Positions 6,405 to 15,000 of a DNA stretch of 21,672 bases are shown piece by piece (positions within the stretch are counted from its first letter, which is position 1; each line of letters opens with the position of its first letter). A program made the translations under genes and the position numbers. The stretch is from a virus. The notes beneath the pieces are model-generated. The model saw only the letters and a program-made list of their open reading frames with translations. It ran no database searches and had not been told where the DNA came from. The stretch lies in IMG/VR virus record IMGVR_UViG_3300020159_000414, positions 1-21,672 of that record. One strand, 5' to 3'.

Positions 6405-6460
6405 TTTTCGGCAAGTGTGCAAGCATTTGCTTCTCCTCGATGGTTCAGTTGCCATCTTTG

Positions 6461-6492
6461 CCCCACTAGTTCGCGCTGGTGGGGTTTTTTTT
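6461..6492 (+). terminator. Intrinsic terminator for rightward transcripts
   Basis: A 9-bp stem, CCCCACTAG paired with CTGGTGGGG (one G-U pair), a 6-base loop and a run of eight T residues directly after the stem. It works only in the rightward direction; the leftward side has no T tract. No rightward gene lies upstream in the window, so it would stop RNA that is antisense to the terminase operon. Confidence 0.8.
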
Positions 6493-6708
6493 CGTCCCTC
6501 GGTTTTTCCAAATTTTTATAAAATTTTATGGGAGTACTGTAGTTTTGTACAGTGGGGGTACTTCGGATTTTTTAAAATTAGATTTGCGGCTGCGGAACAG
6601 TGTTCACACCATGACGGCACAGCTCGGCCCAAAAGGGGACATGGGGGTATGGTGGGGTTCGGCTATGGGGAATTCTCCCTGCTGTCAAGGGTATTCTGAA
6701 AGCTGTTG

Positions 6709-6717
6709 TGGTATACT
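6709..6717 (+). promoter_or_regulatory. Extended -10 promoter for the first rightward genes
   Basis: TGGTATACT is a TGn extended -10 with hexamer TATACT at 6712-6717. No good -35 lies 16-18 bases upstream, which extended -10 promoters can tolerate. Transcription should start near 6723-6725 and run through a short leader into the gene at 6798. The better promoter at 11703-11711 uses the same extended -10 design. Confidence 0.6.
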
Positions 6718-6755
6718 AGATGCATCGGTTGGGGATTGCCTAGCCGATTCGGTTT

Positions 6756-6780
6756 GCCTCGCCCGTCTGCGAGGCTTTTT
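6756..6780 (+). terminator. Intrinsic terminator or attenuator in the leader of the first early gene
   Basis: GCCTCGC and GCGAGGC form a perfect 7-bp stem with a 6-base loop, followed at once by TTTTTCTTTT. It lies after the predicted transcription start (about 6724) and before the start codon at 6798. A second, earlier stem (ATCGGTT 6724-6730 with AGCCGAT 6742-6748) lies at the very 5' end. The layout fits an attenuator, or a short RNA of about 55 bases. Confidence 0.7.
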
Positions 6781-6797
6781 CTTTTGGAGATTCAATC

Positions 6798-7172
6798 ATG
6801 ACTAAGTCATTCAATCGTGTTGCTGTGTTCGCTGTGTTCAATGATGCGGACAACGAGTCCGCCAGTTTTGCCGAGCAGTTGCTTGCGCTTGGCATCGGGT
6901 CACGTGCAGACGCTAGGCCACTTGCAATGGAGTGGGCATCTAAGAAGTACAACGTGGCAATCAAAGAGGGACAGCGCGGGATGACGTTTGTGAAGCGCGA
7001 CACAGACGCAGAGAAAGCAATGAACCGCGTGCTTCAAGTGTGCTACCCAAGCGCGGACAAACCCAAGTCTGGTAAACAGACAGCCAACAAGGTTGACGCT
7101 GTTGACGCGGTGCTCAAGAAGTACCAAGCACTCACCGCAAGTGAGAAGCGCCGCTTCTTGAAGTCGATCTGA
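6798..7172 (+). CDS. Conserved-looking small phage protein of unknown function, first gene of right arm
   Basis: A 124-residue protein, MTKSFNRVAVFAVFNDADNE and on. The middle (residues about 34-65, SRADARPLAMEWASKKYNVAIKEG then RGMTFVKRDTDAEKA) is compact and mixed alpha/beta in appearance. The C-terminus (about 85-124) is basic and helical, ending LTASEKRRFLKSI. There are no cysteine motifs, membrane segments or recognisable catalytic residues. The start has TTGGAG ten bases upstream. It is the first gene after the early promoter and leader terminator, so it is probably made first in infection, and such genes often act on the host. That is position-based inference; the family is not recognised. 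Confidence 0.8.
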   Translation: MTKSFNRVAVFAVFNDADNESASFAEQLLALGIGSRADARPLAMEWASKKYNVAIKEGQRGMTFVKRDTDAEKAMNRVLQVCYPSADKPKSGKQTANKVDAVDAVLKKYQALTASEKRRFLKSI

Positions 7173-7195
7173 CGGACAAGTTGTCCGTGAGTTTT
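7172..7195 (+). terminator. GGACA-type hairpin followed by T run (repeat family copy 1)
   Basis: ACGGACAA and TTGTCCGT form an inverted repeat with its centre at 7180; in RNA this would be ACGGACA closed by a 3-base loop. GAG and TTTTT follow. It starts on the stop codon of the gene before it and can act as an intrinsic terminator. The core matches two more copies at 7470 and 9123. Confidence 0.65.
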
Positions 7196-7201
7196 TCGTA
7201 G

Positions 7202-7226
7202 ACGCAAGAGAGCGAGCCCCTTGCGT
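7202..7226 (+). terminator. Second hairpin of the 7173-7259 spacer
   Basis: ACGCAAG (7202-7208) pairs perfectly with CTTGCGT (7220-7226) across an 11-base loop, and TGTTCCTTTT follows. It may be a weak terminator or an RNA stability element. It forms a tandem pair with the GGACA hairpin 14 bases upstream. Confidence 0.5.
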
Positions 7227-7259
7227 TGTTCCTTTTAATGTCCAACTGGAGTATTCATC

Positions 7260-7466
7260 ATGAGCAAATCATCTAAGAACAAACACTACGCTTTAAGCCA
7301 ACTCAAAGAGTTGAGGGAACACTTTGTTTCCATGCGCGACCAATGGGAGAAAGACCCCCGCGCAGTCATGCAACGTAAGGCACAGCTACGGGCGCAACTC
7401 GCGCAGGAATCCATGCAGGAGTGGGAATCCATCAAGCGGGAATCCAAGCAACTGCGCCTCCTCTAA
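7260..7466 (+). CDS. Small charged helical protein of unknown function
   Basis: A 68-residue protein beginning MSKSSKNKHYALSQLKE. It is almost entirely charged and helical, with coiled-coil potential over residues about 12-66 (LKELREHFVSMRDQWEKD, later QAQLAQ-like and EWESIKRESK segments). The net charge is positive. There are no cysteines or membrane segments. TGGAG lies 10 bases before the ATG. It sits alone between two spacers that each hold a pair of hairpins, so its expression may be set separately from its neighbours. No family is recognised. Confidence 0.7.
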   Translation: MSKSSKNKHYALSQLKELREHFVSMRDQWEKDPRAVMQRKAQLRAQLAQESMQEWESIKRESKQLRLL

Positions 7467-7469
7467 CTC

Positions 7470-7486
7470 GCGGACAAAGTGTCCGC
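7470..7486 (+). repeat. GGACA-type hairpin (repeat family copy 2)
   Basis: GCGGACA and TGTCCGC form a perfect 7-bp stem with loop AAG, four bases after the stop codon at 7466. There is no T run behind it (AACTATCTC), so termination is not certain. The stem is identical to the copy at 9123-9139. Confidence 0.8.
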
Positions 7487-7493
7487 AACTATC

Positions 7494-7515
7494 TCTCCAC
7501 AACGTATTGTGGAGA
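7494..7515 (+). repeat. Second hairpin of the 7467-7879 spacer
   Basis: TCTCCACAA and TTGTGGAGA form a perfect 9-bp stem with a 4-base loop (CGTA), 7 bases after the GGACA hairpin. It is strong enough to fold as RNA, and the bases behind it are not T-rich. Confidence 0.7.
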
Positions 7516-7879
7516 AGTGAGGTAAAAGTGTTGTTTTTTCGCACATACCCACCACTTGACACAACTGGACACACACACGGGCATCGCGTAACCCGCATGG
7601 ATACTAGCGATTGCGATGTCCACGTCCACAATACCTATATATAAATACATTTTTCATTTAGATATATATATCTGTATGTTAGTGGGTGTGTCTTTTTGTT
7701 CTTGTTTTCAAGTTAGCCTTAGTGTTCTTGAAAAATGGTGGGTATTGTGGTCAACTACCAGTCAACCCCTGTGTTCATGCGCCTTTCAGGTGGTCATAAT
7801 TTTTTGGACCACCTTGGAGAATGGTGGGCCAGTTCCAAAACCAAGTGGGCCAGTTAGCCCCAATCTATAAGGCTTTAGT
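7516..7879. other. Gene-free spacer with AT-rich island and repeats
   Basis: About 360 bases with no credible gene; frames that cross it have unlikely composition (runs of Cys, Trp, Phe and Ile) and no ribosome binding sites. It holds an AT-rich island (about 7628-7690) with a perfect 14-bp palindrome AGATATATATATCT (7660-7673), an inverted repeat at 7788-7814 and two direct repeats at 7824-7855. A promoter for the gene at 7880 is likely here, but no clear -10/-35 pair stands out. Easily melted DNA of this kind could also be a replication start site; no iterons were seen to support that. Confidence 0.5.
7788..7855. promoter_or_regulatory. Inverted repeat and two in-phase direct repeats before the zinc-motif gene
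   Basis: AGGTGGTC (7788-7795) and GACCACCT (7807-7814) form an 8-bp inverted repeat around a T-rich 11-base loop. Just downstream GTGGGCCAGTT occurs twice, at 7824-7834 and 7845-7855. The 21-base period places both copies on the same face of the helix. The second copy ends 24 bases before the ATG at 7880. This looks like an operator or enhancer cluster. Confidence 0.5.
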
Positions 7880-8578
7880 ATGCAAATCAAAACGTGCGCT
7901 AAATGTGGAGAGTCGCACCCTCTCAATCAATTCACGTACCTCGCTACGTATGCACAGTCAAAAGCATGGGGCAGAGCAGGCAACGTGCGTATGTCGCTCG
8001 AGTCCAAAAACTGCAAAGCCTGCCGTCCCAAGCGCAAACCAACGAGCAAGCTGACCAAGAAAGACCTGCACAACAAGGTGCAGACAGGCGACCTCAACGC
8101 CTACCTCGCACAAAACCTGCTCATCATCAAGCAACGCACAGCGCACAACAAGCAGGGCATGGCATCCCGCAAGCGATGGCTCAAGGTGTGGAAGGCAGAG
8201 TTAGCCGAGGCACTCAAGCCCATCACCAAAGAGATAGTCAGCGCAAGGAACGCCCATCTGTACGCCAAGGACAAGGGCTACGTCGACAAGGCAGAGTTCT
8301 ACTTTAGATACCACGCGATTCTCAAGCACGAGAAAGCTCACATTGAACTGAGCTACGCCACAAACCCGCGCCGACCACACAGCGCAAGGTGGGCTGACTA
8401 CCTAGCCGACAACGTGTTCACCATAGTGCGCGAGATGTGGGCGGCACTACCGCCTGTATACAAACACAGCAGGATACCTCTGCTGATAGCGTACCGCGAT
8501 GCGTTCACGCAGGTGAACAAAGACAGCAAGTTCGTACCGCCAAGATCATTGGCATATTTAAAAGGAGAAAGCAAATGA
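7880..8578 (+). CDS. Zinc-motif protein of unknown function
   Basis: A 232-residue basic protein. The N-terminus holds two CxxC pairs, C6/C9 (KTCAKCGE) and C45/C48 (NCKACRP), able to bind one zinc ion in a zinc-ribbon-like fold. A lysine-rich linker (KRKPTSKLTKKDLHNK) follows. Residues about 70-232 are helical with many basic and aromatic residues (RKRWLKVWKAELAEALK, KAEFYFRYHAILKHEKAH). This pattern suggests nucleic acid binding. No nuclease motif of the HNH type is visible. AAGG lies 7 bases before the ATG. The stop overlaps the next start (ATGA), so it is coupled to the gene at 8575. Confidence 0.75.
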   Translation: MQIKTCAKCGESHPLNQFTYLATYAQSKAWGRAGNVRMSLESKNCKACRPKRKPTSKLTKKDLHNKVQTGDLNAYLAQNLLIIKQRTAHNKQGMASRKRWLKVWKAELAEALKPITKEIVSARNAHLYAKDKGYVDKAEFYFRYHAILKHEKAHIELSYATNPRRPHSARWADYLADNVFTIVREMWAALPPVYKHSRIPLLIAYRDAFTQVNKDSKFVPPRSLAYLKGESK

Positions 8579-8976
8579 GATATGAAACACTAATGGAAGC
8601 CCAACTGGGTGCGTTCCCCGACAGCATCGTGCTATCCGATGACGAGATGTACTACGCCCTGCGAGCAACAGTTCCCGACTGGCTTGTCGATCACCAGATA
8701 GAGAATTGGGATAAGTTCAGCGCCCACTATGAGATGGGCGTGTTCACAGACTGGTACTACTACGAGTGGAAGCAGAAAGAAACTGAGATGGCACGAGCGC
8801 AATGGGCTCGCAGTGCGTTCTTGTACAAGTCACAACACCCACAAGGATTCTTTTATGCGTGCGGCAAACGCCCCGATGGTACGTACAGATACGTAGGCTA
8901 CCGATTCGGGCTAGAGGACTGCGAGTATGCATCAGGCTTTATAGGTATGGAATACAAACCACAAGGAGAGAAGTAA
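8575..8976 (+). CDS. Small protein of unknown function, aromatic-rich
   Basis: A 133-residue protein. I place the start at 8575, where AAAGGAG precedes the ATG by 8 bases and the ATG overlaps the previous stop; an extension to 8437 in the same frame has no binding site and overlaps the upstream gene. The protein is rich in Tyr, Trp and acidic residues (WDKFSAHYEMGVFTDWYYYE and FFYACGKRPDGTYRYVGYRFG). It has two isolated cysteines and no membrane segment. No family is recognised. The stop shares an A with the start of the 30-residue membrane protein (TAATG). Confidence 0.75.
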   Translation: MRYETLMEAQLGAFPDSIVLSDDEMYYALRATVPDWLVDHQIENWDKFSAHYEMGVFTDWYYYEWKQKETEMARAQWARSAFLYKSQHPQGFFYACGKRPDGTYRYVGYRFGLEDCEYASGFIGMEYKPQGEK

Positions 8977-9068
8977 TGCTAACTGGATGGGAAAAACTTG
9001 AACGCGTCGTGGTGGTGCTAGCCATCATTGTCTTAATACTGGACTTGTTCTACTGGAGAGGAGGGTAA
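8976..9068 (+). CDS. 30-residue single-span membrane protein
   Basis: ATG at 8976 overlaps the stop of the gene before (TAATG) and has AAGGAGAG 7 bases upstream. The product has a charged start (MLTGWEKLER), one hydrophobic span of about 16-18 residues (VVVVLAIIVLILDLFYW) and ends RGG. The ribosome site, the coupling and a pure membrane composition make it a likely real gene despite its size. Possible roles are a membrane-bound regulator or an inhibitor of a host membrane process. A holin is less likely because the gene is in the early arm and has only one short span. The function is unknown. Confidence 0.65.
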   Translation: MLTGWEKLERVVVVLAIIVLILDLFYWRGG

Positions 9069-9096
9069 CTACGAGAGAACGGTCATTCTTGCTTCT

Positions 9097-9117
9097 GTGG
9101 CATCCCGCCACGTTTTT
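9097..9117 (+). terminator. Intrinsic terminator after the small membrane protein gene
   Basis: GTGGC and GCCAC form a 5-bp stem with loop ATCCC, then G and TTTTT. The stem is short but the T run is right behind it. It is the first hairpin of a tandem pair in this spacer. Confidence 0.6.
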
Positions 9118-9122
9118 AACTC

Positions 9123-9139
9123 GCGGACAAACTGTCCGC
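9123..9139 (+). repeat. GGACA-type hairpin (repeat family copy 3)
   Basis: GCGGACA and TGTCCGC with loop AAC, followed by AACTTTTTGG. The stem and its CTCGCGG / GCAACT surroundings match the copy at 7470-7486. It lies 19 bases before the ATG at 9159, so it also sits just upstream of that gene's ribosome site (TTGGAG). Confidence 0.8.
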
Positions 9140-9158: not shown

Positions 9159-9593
9159 ATGGAACAAACTAATCAAACCACACAACCCGCTCAAACCTTT
9201 GAGCAACCTACTCAACCATCAATGCCAACAACGGCGCTGATGACCACGCTCATGGCGCTCGTTGAGAACTACATCAAAGACATTGTGTCCGCGCAAGTCA
9301 ACGAGATACTGCTCAATCACTCTACCCTGCGACTCATGGACAACGGCTTCGAGAACAAGATACGCGAGATAGCTCAAGAGGTTGTCGATGACGCGATCAG
9401 TACGCACAACGATGACGAGTACCACATCAGTGAGTCAGACATAGACGACACAGTAAGTACGGCGATCAATGACTTCGACTTCGACGACAAGATCAACGAG
9501 GCAGTCAACGATGCGATCAACGACTTCGACTTCACAGATGTCATCACAGCGTCCATCAAGGACAACATCACGTTCTCTGTAACAGTAGACTAA
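9159..9593 (+). CDS. Highly acidic repetitive protein of unknown function
   Basis: A 144-residue protein. The first 25 residues are Gln/Thr/Pro-rich (TNQTTQPAQTFEQPTQPS). A helical part follows (about 27-75), then a very acidic repetitive half with INDFDFDDKINEAVNDAINDF-like segments; the motif AINDFDF occurs twice, 17 residues apart. There is no cysteine or membrane span. TTGGAG lies 10 bases before the ATG. Acidic proteins made early by phages are sometimes DNA mimics that block host nucleases or polymerases; composition alone cannot show that here. It is followed after 10 bases by the gene at 9604. Confidence 0.75.
   Translation: MEQTNQTTQPAQTFEQPTQPSMPTTALMTTLMALVENYIKDIVSAQVNEILLNHSTLRLMDNGFENKIREIAQEVVDDAISTHNDDEYHISESDIDDTVSTAINDFDFDDKINEAVNDAINDFDFTDVITASIKDNITFSVTVD
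9462..9533 (+). repeat. Internal 51-bp periodic repeat in the acidic protein gene
   Basis: GCGATCAAYGACTTCGACTT begins at 9462 and again at 9513, a 51-base (17-codon) period. The codons for Asp and Asn match in both copies, so this is a nucleotide duplication as well as a protein repeat. Confidence 0.7.
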
Positions 9594-11738: not shown

Positions 11739-12941
11739 ATGAGCTATGAGAAGATGACTCTCAATCAGAGAGTACAAGCCGCCAACATTGACTGTATGCG
11801 GCACCCTAAGTTCGCCTTGCTGTCAGGCGTCATCATGCTAGGTAAGAGCGAGGTGTCCGACAAGATACCAACAGCCGCTACCAACGGGCGTGACAAGAAG
11901 TATGGCGCTGAGTTCATCAAGCCACTCAACCGCAAGCAGATGCGCTACTTAGTTCTGCACGAGAACTTTCACGTAGCCCTCAAGCATTGCATCTTGTTCA
12001 AGCAGTACACACGCAAGATGCCTAAGCTCACCAACATAGCACACGACTATGTGGTCAACGCATTGATCGAGGAGATGGACCCCGAGTTCAAGTTTGTCGA
12101 GCGTCCTACCGAGTCGCTGTGCATTGACCGCAAGTACTTCGGTTGGTCATTCCCTCAGGTACTCAATGACCTCATCAAGAGTGGCCGCAAGGAACCTGAG
12201 AAGGGTGACAAGGGCGATGGTGATGGCGGTGACTTCGATGAGCCCCTCGATGCACACGAGGATGGTGAGTTCGATGACAACCCAGTCGAGCAAGACAAGC
12301 TAGGCAAGCAGATCGACGATGCCAATCGTCAAGGCGAGATACTTGCACGTAAGCTTGCGGGTAAGGAAGGTGGTGGTCGTGACATCTTAGGCACAGCCAA
12401 GGAACGCACGACTGATTGGAAGCAAGCATTGCAAGAGTGGATTAGTTCTATCTCTGCGGGCGACGACAACTCACGCTTCTGTCCTCCCAACAAGCGCCTG
12501 CTTGCATCGGGCTTCGTTATGCCATCACACTTCACAGAGTCAGTCGGTGAGTTGATTCTCGCTGTCGATACATCAGGCTCTATGTATCCGTACTACCGCT
12601 TGTTGTTCGGTGAGATTGCTCGCATCTGCAACATCACTAAGCCTGCGGGTGTGCGTGTGCTGTGGTGGGATACCGCCGTGTGTGGTGACCAATCATTCAA
12701 GCCTGCTGACTACGAGCAGATCACATCACTCATGAGTCCCAAGGGTGGTGGCGGCACAACTCCCGATGTTGTCGTTGACTACATCCGCGAACACAAGATC
12801 GACGCTAAGGCAATCGTCTGGTTAACAGATGGCTACCTTGGTTGCGATACCCCGAATACCCCAATGCCATCTCTGTGGGGTGTGGTAGAGAACGAGTCCT
12901 TCGTTCCTACTCATGGCAAAGTCCTGCGTATTTCTGTTTAA
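11739..12941 (+). CDS. Metallopeptidase-like plus VWA domain protein (DUF2201/CobT-like)
   Basis: A 400-residue two-domain protein. The N-terminal domain has a zinc-metallopeptidase HExxH motif (LHENFHVALKH, H74-E75-H78) and the segment NIAHDYVVNALI (99-110), which matches the putative metallopeptidase part of DUF2201 proteins. An acidic, glycine-rich linker follows (about 155-185). The C-terminal VWA-like domain has a complete metal-ion adhesion site: DTSGS (277-281), a threonine in GGGGTTPD (340/341) and LTDG (D364). VWA proteins of this class work with a MoxR/CobS-type AAA+ ATPase, which is exactly the next gene. The pair probably remodels or inserts a cofactor into a target protein. Start: AGGAG before the ATG, just downstream of a strong promoter. 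Whether the HExxH site is catalytic cannot be told from the sequence. Confidence 0.88.
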   Translation: MSYEKMTLNQRVQAANIDCMRHPKFALLSGVIMLGKSEVSDKIPTAATNGRDKKYGAEFIKPLNRKQMRYLVLHENFHVALKHCILFKQYTRKMPKLTNIAHDYVVNALIEEMDPEFKFVERPTESLCIDRKYFGWSFPQVLNDLIKSGRKEPEKGDKGDGDGGDFDEPLDAHEDGEFDDNPVEQDKLGKQIDDANRQGEILARKLAGKEGGGRDILGTAKERTTDWKQALQEWISSISAGDDNSRFCPPNKRLLASGFVMPSHFTESVGELILAVDTSGSMYPYYRLLFGEIARICNITKPAGVRVLWWDTAVCGDQSFKPADYEQITSLMSPKGGGGTTPDVVVDYIREHKIDAKAIVWLTDGYLGCDTPNTPMPSLWGVVENESFVPTHGKVLRISV

Positions 12942-12966
12942 TCAATAACCTTTGGAGAAAATTATC

Positions 12967-14091
12967 ATGAATCAATTCTTATCTGCATCTCAAGTTGTTT
13001 CCCTCGTTGCCGCTGTCGGTGACAAGCGCACAGTAATTGTGGAGGGCGAGAACGGCATCGGCAAGACTGCCCTCTTCCACGCACTACGCAAGCTACCCAA
13101 GTTTGCTGACCACATCGCTGTGCAACCTATTGACTGCACTCAGTTGTCTGACGGCTCTGTGTGGATGCCTGACCTCGATCGTGAGAATGGCGTGTCTCGT
13201 GAGTTACCCAACGAGCGCTTCGGTGTCAGCGCGTTCAATCAACTCGGTGTCAACAACTCCAAGCCTATCCTCGTAGGTCTTGATGAGATCGCCAAGGCAC
13301 CGCAGTTCATCAAGAATGTATTGGCTCCGATCATCTATGAGCGCAGAGTCGGCAACCTAAGCATGCCTGAGGGTAGCGTTGTTGTGTGCTTTACCAATCT
13401 ATCTGTCGAGGGTCTTGGTGATTCCATTCAGGCTCACCTACGCAATCGTCTTGTGTTCGTCAAGATGCGTAAGCCTAACTGTGATGAGTGGGTCAAGTGG
13501 GCTACTGACAATGGCGTCAACCCAATGATTATTGCTTTCGTTAGCAACGAGCCACGCGTTATGCAATCGTTCCTTGACTACGAGAAGGGCGGTATGTTCG
13601 AGGGCAAGGACTTGTCCAAGGACAACGGCTTCATCTTCAACCCCAAGTCTATGCAACTTGCATACGCTACACCTCGCTCATTGGTTGCCGCTAGTGACAT
13701 CCTCGATGCGGGTCTTGGTGTTCTTGATGATGACACTATCGAGGCGGCTCTCGTTGGTACTGTTGGTGCTACTACGGCACAGGCATTGTCATCGTTCATT
13801 CGCTTCGGTCGTGAGATCTGCGAGTACTCTCGCGTTATCAAATCACCTGACACAGCGCCGCTGTCTGACAACCCTACGGCGCAGTTGATTCAGGTATTCC
13901 AGTTCGTTACTCGCGTAGCGGACAGGGCAGAGGCAGAAGCCATCGTCAAGTACGTATGGCGTATGCGTGCAGAGATGCAGTCGATCTTCTGCAACACAGT
14001 AGCAACAAGTCAGCGTGTGGCTTTGTTCGCTACGATCAATGAGTTCGGTCGCATGTTAGCCGAGCACAAAATCTTTTTCTCAACCAAGTAA
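12967..14091 (+). CDS. MoxR/CobS-like AAA+ ATPase
   Basis: A 374-residue ATPase. The start is the ATG at 12967, preceded by TTTGGAG at a 9-base distance; an in-frame TTG at 12952 would put that ribosome site inside the gene. Motifs in order are Walker A GENGIGKT (27-34), Walker B ILVGLDEI (101-108), a sensor-1 Asn in CFTN (N144), a likely arginine finger in HLRNRLVF (R159/R161) and a sensor-2 segment ATPRSL (R237). A MoxR-like order of motifs, and the partner VWA gene 25 bases upstream, point to a hexameric chaperone-like ring. Phage genes of this type are often named cobS, but no cobalamin pathway gene is near, so cobalt chelation is unlikely to be its role. Confidence 0.9.
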   Translation: MNQFLSASQVVSLVAAVGDKRTVIVEGENGIGKTALFHALRKLPKFADHIAVQPIDCTQLSDGSVWMPDLDRENGVSRELPNERFGVSAFNQLGVNNSKPILVGLDEIAKAPQFIKNVLAPIIYERRVGNLSMPEGSVVVCFTNLSVEGLGDSIQAHLRNRLVFVKMRKPNCDEWVKWATDNGVNPMIIAFVSNEPRVMQSFLDYEKGGMFEGKDLSKDNGFIFNPKSMQLAYATPRSLVAASDILDAGLGVLDDDTIEAALVGTVGATTAQALSSFIRFGREICEYSRVIKSPDTAPLSDNPTAQLIQVFQFVTRVADRAEAEAIVKYVWRMRAEMQSIFCNTVATSQRVALFATINEFGRMLAEHKIFFSTK

Positions 14092-14109
14092 TCACAAGGA
14101 GTTCTTATC

Positions 14110-15000
14110 ATGACTACAACTAACACTACACCCCGCCACAACATCGACACATGCGCTATGCTTGTGGAGTTCAACGCTTCTGTGTGGACAGCACGTAAGC
14201 TAGACAAGACTACTACCGATGAGGTAGTGGCAAGCAAGAACGCGGGGGCAAAGGATGCCGCCCGTGTGAACAAGCACCTGCTCGCAGGTCGCACCGAGTT
14301 GGATGTTATTCAACAAGCGGTCAGTCGTGCGCGTCAATTCGTATACGACAACACAGCGCCTTGGTCTGACTCAGGTCTGCGCCTCTTACCTACTGTCAAC
14401 TTCATGAAGTTCACCGAGCGCATGAATGACTTCGAGGAAGAGATGGAGGCCATCGTCAAGTCCTTTGTGGCTATCTACCCTACTCTTATCACAGCACAGG
14501 CCTTGGCTCTTGGCGATATGTTCAAGAGAGATGACTACCCCACAGCCAATGAGATCATGACCAAGTTCTCATTCCGCGTTAACTACATGCCTGTCCCCTC
14601 ATCGGGTGACTTCCGTGTGGATGTGGGCAACCAAGCACAGGCAGAACTCAAGGCTCGCCTTGAATCTCTGACACAAGAACGCATCGACTCTGCGATGGCA
14701 GATGTGCGCGAGAGACTTAGCACTCACCTCAAACGTATGTCAGACAGACTGACTACTGACTATGTGAATGGTGAAGCTAAGCAAAGGCGTTTCCACGACA
14801 CGCTTGTCGATGGTGCGCTTGAGTTGTGTGACCTCACCAAGTCATTGAACGTGACGAACGATGTGGCTTTAGAGGAAGCACGTAAGCAGTTGGAACAGCT
14901 ACTCGTTGGCGTGTCCCCTGCTGATCTGCGTAAGAACGAGGCCATCCGCCAAGACGTCAAGAAGAACGTCGATGCCATCCTCGACAAGTTCAACTTCTAA
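14110..15000 (+). CDS. Helical protein resembling DUF3150, third member of the ATPase-VWA block
   Basis: A 296-residue, mostly helical protein. The order of segments (ASVWTARKLDK at 23-33, RVNKHLLAG at 52-60, a PWSDSGLRLLP turn at 84-94, then long helices with ALGDMF and a short VPSSGDFRVDV strand, then coiled coil to the end) resembles DUF3150 proteins, which I associate with CobS/CobT-like gene pairs in mobile elements. That match is from memory of the pattern and is not certain. AAGGAG precedes the ATG. It follows the ATPase by 18 bases, and all three genes appear to be one operon. It may be an adaptor or a substrate of the ATPase-VWA machine. Confidence 0.75.
   Translation: MTTTNTTPRHNIDTCAMLVEFNASVWTARKLDKTTTDEVVASKNAGAKDAARVNKHLLAGRTELDVIQQAVSRARQFVYDNTAPWSDSGLRLLPTVNFMKFTERMNDFEEEMEAIVKSFVAIYPTLITAQALALGDMFKRDDYPTANEIMTKFSFRVNYMPVPSSGDFRVDVGNQAQAELKARLESLTQERIDSAMADVRERLSTHLKRMSDRLTTDYVNGEAKQRRFHDTLVDGALELCDLTKSLNVTNDVALEEARKQLEQLLVGVSPADLRKNEAIRQDVKKNVDAILDKFNF

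Follow-up and report, generated by a model that had tools for sequence, protein, structure and literature searches.

Early-region palindromes in a family of aquatic phages change in concert with the N-terminal domain of a candidate regulator

The stretch of DNA analyzed here (the window) is a 21,672-nucleotide virus fragment from IMG/VR (IMGVR_UViG_3300020159_000414, positions 1 to 21,672) in which terminase, portal, and DNA polymerase were recognized through PHROG. Among named phages it has no close nucleotide relative. Three copies of a palindrome with the core GGACA-N3-TGTCC lie rightward of the terminase, between plus-strand early genes. We find that most related phages carry a palindrome family of their own in the early region, that the arm sequence, or word, changes as a set between lineages, and that it follows the N-terminal domain of one protein, the 124-residue product of the first early gene (6798–7172, plus strand). 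On balance, and with moderate confidence, we read the palindromes as dispersed double-stranded DNA (dsDNA) operators that a homodimer of this protein would bind, turning early transcription down. The pattern suggests that the target code of a phage switch, site set and N-terminal domain together, may be swapped as a unit.

Palindrome families occupy the early regions of related phages

The exact core occurs in the window at 7174, 7472, and 9125 and nowhere else in it. With one mismatch permitted there are six occurrences against 0.75 expected, a number that no shuffle reached, so the three same-stem copies listed in a preliminary description of the window are well beyond chance. Site 1 (ACGGACA-AGT-TGTCCGT, 7172–7188) overlaps or abuts the stop codon of the 6798–7172 gene. 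Site 2 (GCGGACA-AAG-TGTCCGC, 7470–7486) lies 3 nt past the stop of the 68-residue early gene that separates it from site 1 (7260–7466, plus strand), and site 3 (GCGGACA-AAC-TGTCCGC, 9123–9139) lies 19 nt ahead of the ATG at 9159, just upstream of the ribosome-binding site of a 144-residue early gene (9159–9593, plus strand). The match between sites 2 and 3 extends over a longer repeat, TAACTCGCGGACAAA-N-TGTCCGCAACT. The copies had been placed in spacers between early genes, which is correct for all three exact ones. However, a near-copy that had been overlooked, GCGGAC-AACGA-GTCCGC (6846–6862), falls within the 6798 gene, at its 5′ end. It is kept in relatives with the CGGACA word; L092 lacks it, yet has an exact site 42 nt ahead of the gene start. 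The near-copy is a probable autoregulatory site of the 6798 gene.

We retrieved related contigs by terminase similarity and by motif and searched them for repeated perfect inverted repeats, without choosing the sequence beforehand. The early region of most relatives has its own palindrome family, with 3–8 copies, 3–7 being typical, arms of 6–8 bp, and a center of 2–5 bp. The word varies between lineages, but within one genome all sites switch together. Words seen include GCGGACA-N3, GGGGACA-N3, GGGGAGA-N3, CGATTCA-N3, GGGTCA-N3, TGTGGAG-N4, TGTGGTC-N4, GGGGAG-N4, GGGGAA-N4, GTGAGAC-N5, and GGTGATAC-N5, among others. At homologous places the words differ between relatives while the flanks align. 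The position 2 nt after the first early gene, for example, holds GTGGAG, GTGGTC, or GGGGAG in relatives, and at site 2 the word is swapped within conserved flanks. Among the relatives of the window, the sites are restricted to the early region.

A held-out set, drawn with a different terminase query and without motif selection, comprised 29 contigs whose early sequence spans 2.5 kb or more. A family of at least three copies was present on 26 of 29 early sides, whereas none appeared on the 15 structural sides or in 145 dinucleotide shuffles, and the set added the words GGGGTA, GTGTCA, TGGGAC, GTGGAC, GTGCAG, GTTGAC, GGAGAG, and GGGGTC. Across all contigs with enough early DNA, 66 of 73 carry such a family, and 64 of those 66 also carry a homologue of the 6798–7172 protein. 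The stem family might have proved absent from relatives; instead, these families strongly uphold the earlier suggestion of a control signal shared among early genes. The exceptions that we examined have imperfect families (L033 and L125) or two copies with a 2-bp center (L064). In the parts of the genomes searched, we found no family of at least three perfect copies in HTVC023P, HTVC027P, and DSL-LC04, whose terminases are about 50% identical, or in the marine relatives of the cyanobacterial phage Pag-Yong1.

One contig, L157, has 10 copies of GTTGAC-N5-GTCAAC and no recognizable homologue of the 6798–7172 protein, and the gene at the expected position is not homologous. Its partner may be unrelated or have diverged strongly, and we excluded the contig from the protein analysis below.

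Site patterns favor recognition as double-stranded DNA

The symmetry of the centers bears on the form in which the sites are recognized. Among sites with the same arms, 174 pairs of centers are identical and 153 are reverse complements, compared to 20 and 16 for the reversed and complemented controls. A center and its reverse complement occur together in 30 of 60 contigs (3 for the reversal control). Such strand-symmetric centers favor dsDNA, because an RNA loop would have no reason to be conserved as its reverse complement. At outer stem positions on the transcribed strand, A-C combinations outnumber G-U (224 versus 149), the opposite of what selection for RNA pairing would produce. In L125, degenerate half-sites (GTRCGACA) occur in either order, and the degenerate position is filled independently on each side. 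From these patterns in the DNA letters, we conclude that the sites are almost certainly recognized as dsDNA and not as RNA.

The preliminary description had offered three RNA roles: a common terminator, an RNase processing site, or a site for one RNA-binding protein. Predicted hairpins are stable on average (mean −10.3 kcal/mol), and a T run does follow two of the three window copies, 1 and 3, as had been noted. Over all sites, T-tracts in the direction of transcription exceed those in the reverse direction (61 versus 30 of 307). However, about 80% of sites have no forward T-tract, and the flanks themselves have dyad symmetry, with A-rich stretches ahead of the sites about as numerous as T-rich stretches behind them, so that the T runs represent half of a symmetric flank. 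In addition, the arms are fixed, whereas a terminator requires no fixed sequence; the folding predicted for GATTCA words is weak (−5.0 kcal/mol); and Rfam has no family for the sites, the only sub-threshold match lying elsewhere. Together with the symmetric centers and the lack of a G-U excess, which also argue against RNase processing, these features make any family of RNA hairpins very improbable. What survives of the third option is the single protein, acting on dsDNA.

We also considered hairpin promoters of the N4 virion RNA polymerase type, which have 3-nt loops. They are not favored, although no search for such a polymerase was made: the loops here vary and are strand-symmetric, and the stems are fixed.

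The N-terminal domain of the first early protein follows the word

We sought the partner of the sites as a gene whose similarity between phages follows the site word, and this search identified the 6798–7172 gene without using adjacency. In complete-length relatives, versions of this gene from phages with the same word are 69–84% identical and those from phages with different words cannot be aligned; neighboring genes are mostly 70–100% identical. The homologues are two-domain proteins of 120–156 residues. Their N-terminal domain follows the site word and, beyond a linker, a two-helix C-terminal domain is common to proteins with different words.

Across all contigs, the area under the curve (AUC) for predicting a shared word was 0.93 for the N-terminal domain, 0.82 for the C-terminal domain, and 0.59 for terminase. 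Within the window's clade, the N-terminal domain reached 0.99, compared to 0.45–0.74 for other early genes. Its effect persists after correction for the C-terminal domain and terminase (0 of 2000 permutations). Clustering gives the same picture: N-terminal classes correspond to word classes, whereas C-terminal classes are mixed, one of them (C0) occurring with N-terminal classes N2, N3, N4, and N6. The word GGGGAA-N4 appears in two N-terminal classes (L031/L073 versus L065/L137/L138) whose sites have different centers, AAGT/ACCT-like versus CAAG/CTTG, consistent with two proteins that recognize similar arms.

The gene is also flanked by sites. One lies 0–8 nt past its stop, and 73 of 78 contigs have a second within −200 to +120 of its start, compared to 13% of random windows. 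In the window, this second bracketing site is the near-palindrome at 6846–6862.

The first early gene is thus very probably the partner of the sites, as far as sequence covariation can tell, and we hold with good confidence that its product itself binds them. Physical linkage could produce a similar association if another gene product read the word and the 6798 gene merely hitchhiked as the nearest neighbor, and the word-tracking comparison covered part of each genome's genes. However, the next genes rightward track the word poorly, at the AUC values of 0.45–0.74 given above, and the split runs through the 6798 gene itself, the N-terminal half tracking the word and the C-terminal half much less. 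Hitchhiking therefore seems improbable. A host regulator is likewise not favored, as the word changes along with the phage protein.

The predicted structure of the window protein (mean pLDDT, a per-residue model confidence, of 79) has three helices, a beta hairpin, and a helix, followed by a disordered linker and two helices. The order of elements in the N-terminal domain of this model, which was built on a shallow alignment, is H-H-H-beta-beta-H, one that also occurs in winged-helix proteins. For a GGGGAG-type protein, a model of the same kind has an all-helical N-terminal domain and a similar two-helix tail, so the exchanged domains possibly differ in fold. Fold searches with the window protein returned no PDB match at E<0.001, the highest Z (4.1) belonging to an unrelated chain, and no significant viral match; those with the GGGGAG-type protein returned no significant match either, although absence from lists of fold matches is no evidence of a new fold. 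No Pfam or PHROGs family matches the regulator; sub-threshold Pfam matches were only to unrelated models.

An isolated carrier and its lifestyle

In the 50 kb examined, the Planktothrix phage Pag-Yong1 (OL906435) carries 29 GGTTCA-N3-TGAACC sites with at most one mismatch. They are scattered over the whole genome, some within genes, yet 18 of 29 are intergenic in a sequence that is 10% intergenic (p about 1e-11), and the commonest spot is 4 nt past a stop and 22–23 nt ahead of the next start. The C-terminal domain of the regulator recurs in the first leftward early gene (UMO76074.1; E = 5e-8). A second Pag-Yong1 gene with this domain (L122:16988-17896, E = 1.5e-4) likewise lies beside a site. 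Three records, OL906435, OQ594354, and PP438419, are each exactly 65,014 bp long, name three different cyanobacterial hosts, and encode an identical regulator protein. They look like the same phage, and the true host may be misassigned.

Neither the integrase domain PF00589 nor HTH_3 (PF01381) was found in any of 14 records, whose completeness was not established; parABS and serine integrases were not tested. Bacterial genomes contain no close relative of the terminase, and so no prophage was seen. From these results, the phages are not obviously temperate.

A proposed role in early transcription

The symmetry of the sites points to a dimer, each N-terminal domain of which would read one half-site (GCGGACA in the window), while the two-helix C-terminal domain would probably dimerize the protein or contact a partner. 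Sites that bracket the regulator's own gene suggest autoregulation, presumably autorepression at its own promoter. Taken with the sites in early-operon spacers, this bracketing suggests that the most likely effect of the protein is to lower early transcription, perhaps after the first minutes of infection, and repression of the early operon is the effect we lean toward. The sites recur from spacer to spacer, close ahead of ribosome-binding sites and away from recognizable promoters, which points to blocking of elongating RNA polymerase, stoperator-like but with symmetric sites, or to a DNA role other than transcription. Between lineages, the N-terminal domain would change and the whole site set with it.

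Several points weigh against this proposal. The AUC values count pairs rather than independent evolutionary events. The gene adjoining a site was chosen partly for that adjacency, though it was found separately without it. The winged-helix resemblance of the modeled N-terminal domain is topological and weak, and, as the fold search gave no significant match, DNA binding by this domain rests on covariation. Most sites lie off recognizable promoters, few sigma-70-like promoters being seen in the early region, and symmetric sites cannot be orientation-specific, a property important for true stoperators (PMC9283540).

The same protein and sites could instead organize, protect, replicate, or package phage DNA, or mark self against co-infecting DNA. 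Symmetric sites mostly away from recognizable promoters would suit such a role, as would the genome-wide sites of Pag-Yong1, some of them inside genes, and the authors who described similar sites in Cluster O argued that those act outside initiation (PMC4351075). The restriction of sites to the early region in the window's relatives and the bracketing of the regulator's own gene, a geometry of gene control, speak against it, and we judge a DNA role unlikely, though worth keeping in view. Alternatively, the protein might act at the sites as an activator or antiterminator and raise early or middle expression. It is encoded first and hence available early, and the sites often adjoin terminator-like hairpins. 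However, positions directly upstream of starts and just past stops are blocking rather than activating relative to the visible promoters, and we give this alternative little weight.

Repression of the early operon would have a further, speculative extension, which we doubt more than we believe. Virulent phages may possess an immunity-like modular code in which a first-expressed protein with exchangeable DNA-reading domains, acting at symmetric roadblock sites that switch with it, silences the early genes of its own phage and of any co-infecting phage that shares the word. If so, selection to escape exclusion would drive repeated rewriting of the whole word set.

Neighboring features of the window

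Each copy had been said to have a second hairpin within 20 bases, and this is accurate: one follows copy 1 (7202–7226), one follows copy 2 (7495–7514), and one precedes copy 3 (9096–9112, plus strand). The hairpin adjoining site 2, CTCCACAA-CGTA-TTGTGGAG, is separate from the site family and is almost invariant in 11 aligned relatives, irrespective of their word. The terminator-like hairpin just upstream of site 3, TGTGGC-ATCCC-GCCACG followed by TTTTT, is missing in some relatives (L010, L015) and so is not a constant part.

The hairpin at 7495–7514 belongs to a non-coding stretch of about 390 nt (7490–7880) that is strongly conserved in relatives and also contains an AT-rich TATATATAAATAC...TAGATATATATAT block, a candidate early promoter or replication origin. 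Between the divergent operons, a region conserved in many relatives (6432–6805) holds strong terminator-like hairpins at 6460–6485, with a T8 run, and 6756–6775, with a T5 run. A gene block at 11739–15000 (a phrog_1314-like gene, a phrog_1297 ATPase, and a 296-residue protein) is common to the window and Pag-Yong1, where the counterparts are annotated as VWA-like and ATPase; it is possibly an ATPase plus VWA pair.

Comparison with known systems

Arrays of palindromic repeats had been described by 2015 at the latest in phages that lack lysogeny (Cluster O), and we found no partner protein for them in the literature. A candidate partner can now be named within a large family of aquatic phages. 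With it come more than 20 natural word–protein pairs and a natural library of putative DNA-binding domains, with at least two apparent folds, tied to readable target words of 17–19 bp. Turnover of whole operator sets can be traced between close relatives, and the function of the pairs becomes testable.

The nearest match in appearance is the dyad repeat of the Cluster O mycobacteriophages, Corndog and its relatives, which have more than 30 copies of the 17-bp TGTTCGG-N3-CCGAACA with no explained function (PMC4351075). Both systems have 7-3-7 palindromes with invariant arms and a variable, strand-neutral center, many of them intergenic. The Cluster O phages have no integrase and no reported lysogens (PMC4351075), and none was seen here in the records and bacterial genomes searched. 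Here, this layout is seen in GCGGACA-N3-TGTCCGC and others, while some lineages have centers of 2, 4, or 5 bp. Unlike the present families, Cluster O has a single word, absent from those we found, that is spread genome-wide with a third of its copies inside genes, and no partner protein has been proposed. Firecracker (Corndogvirus), our stand-in for Corndog, has no match to the regulator profiles, and we therefore do not claim kinship.

In the Cluster K mycobacteriophages, the start-associated sequences (SAS) are asymmetric 13-mers at translation starts and the ESAS are paired, imperfect 17-bp inverted repeats with variable spacers (PMC3203893). These too are repeats near start codons with no explained function, and the ESAS are inverted repeats; the asymmetry of the SAS and the paired, imperfect, variably spaced ESAS set them apart from our sites. 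The lambda-type CI/Cro operators share two-fold symmetry, specificity in the N-terminal domain, C-terminal oligomerization, and immunity-type diversification. In contrast to those operators, the sites here are spread along an operon and not gathered at two promoters, the protein is unrelated in sequence, and no lysogeny module was found.

The stoperators of the Cluster A mycobacteriophages (L5, Bxb1) and their immunity repressor are also among the closest known systems. Both systems have dispersed sites, multiple and in short intergenic spacers, a word that coevolves with one phage protein, and a site near the gene for that protein (PMC9283540, PMC6550527). Stoperators are 13-bp, asymmetric, orientation-dependent sites of temperate phages, and the protein that binds them is a monomer carrying two DNA-binding domains (PMC9283540, PMC6550527). 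The sites described here are instead few, palindromic, and orientation-neutral, with strand-symmetric centers, in phages in which we saw no integrase or HTH_3 repressor. Even so, the concerted change of the word resembles the evolution of immunity specificity in Cluster A repressors and stoperators (PMC6550527, PMC9283540).

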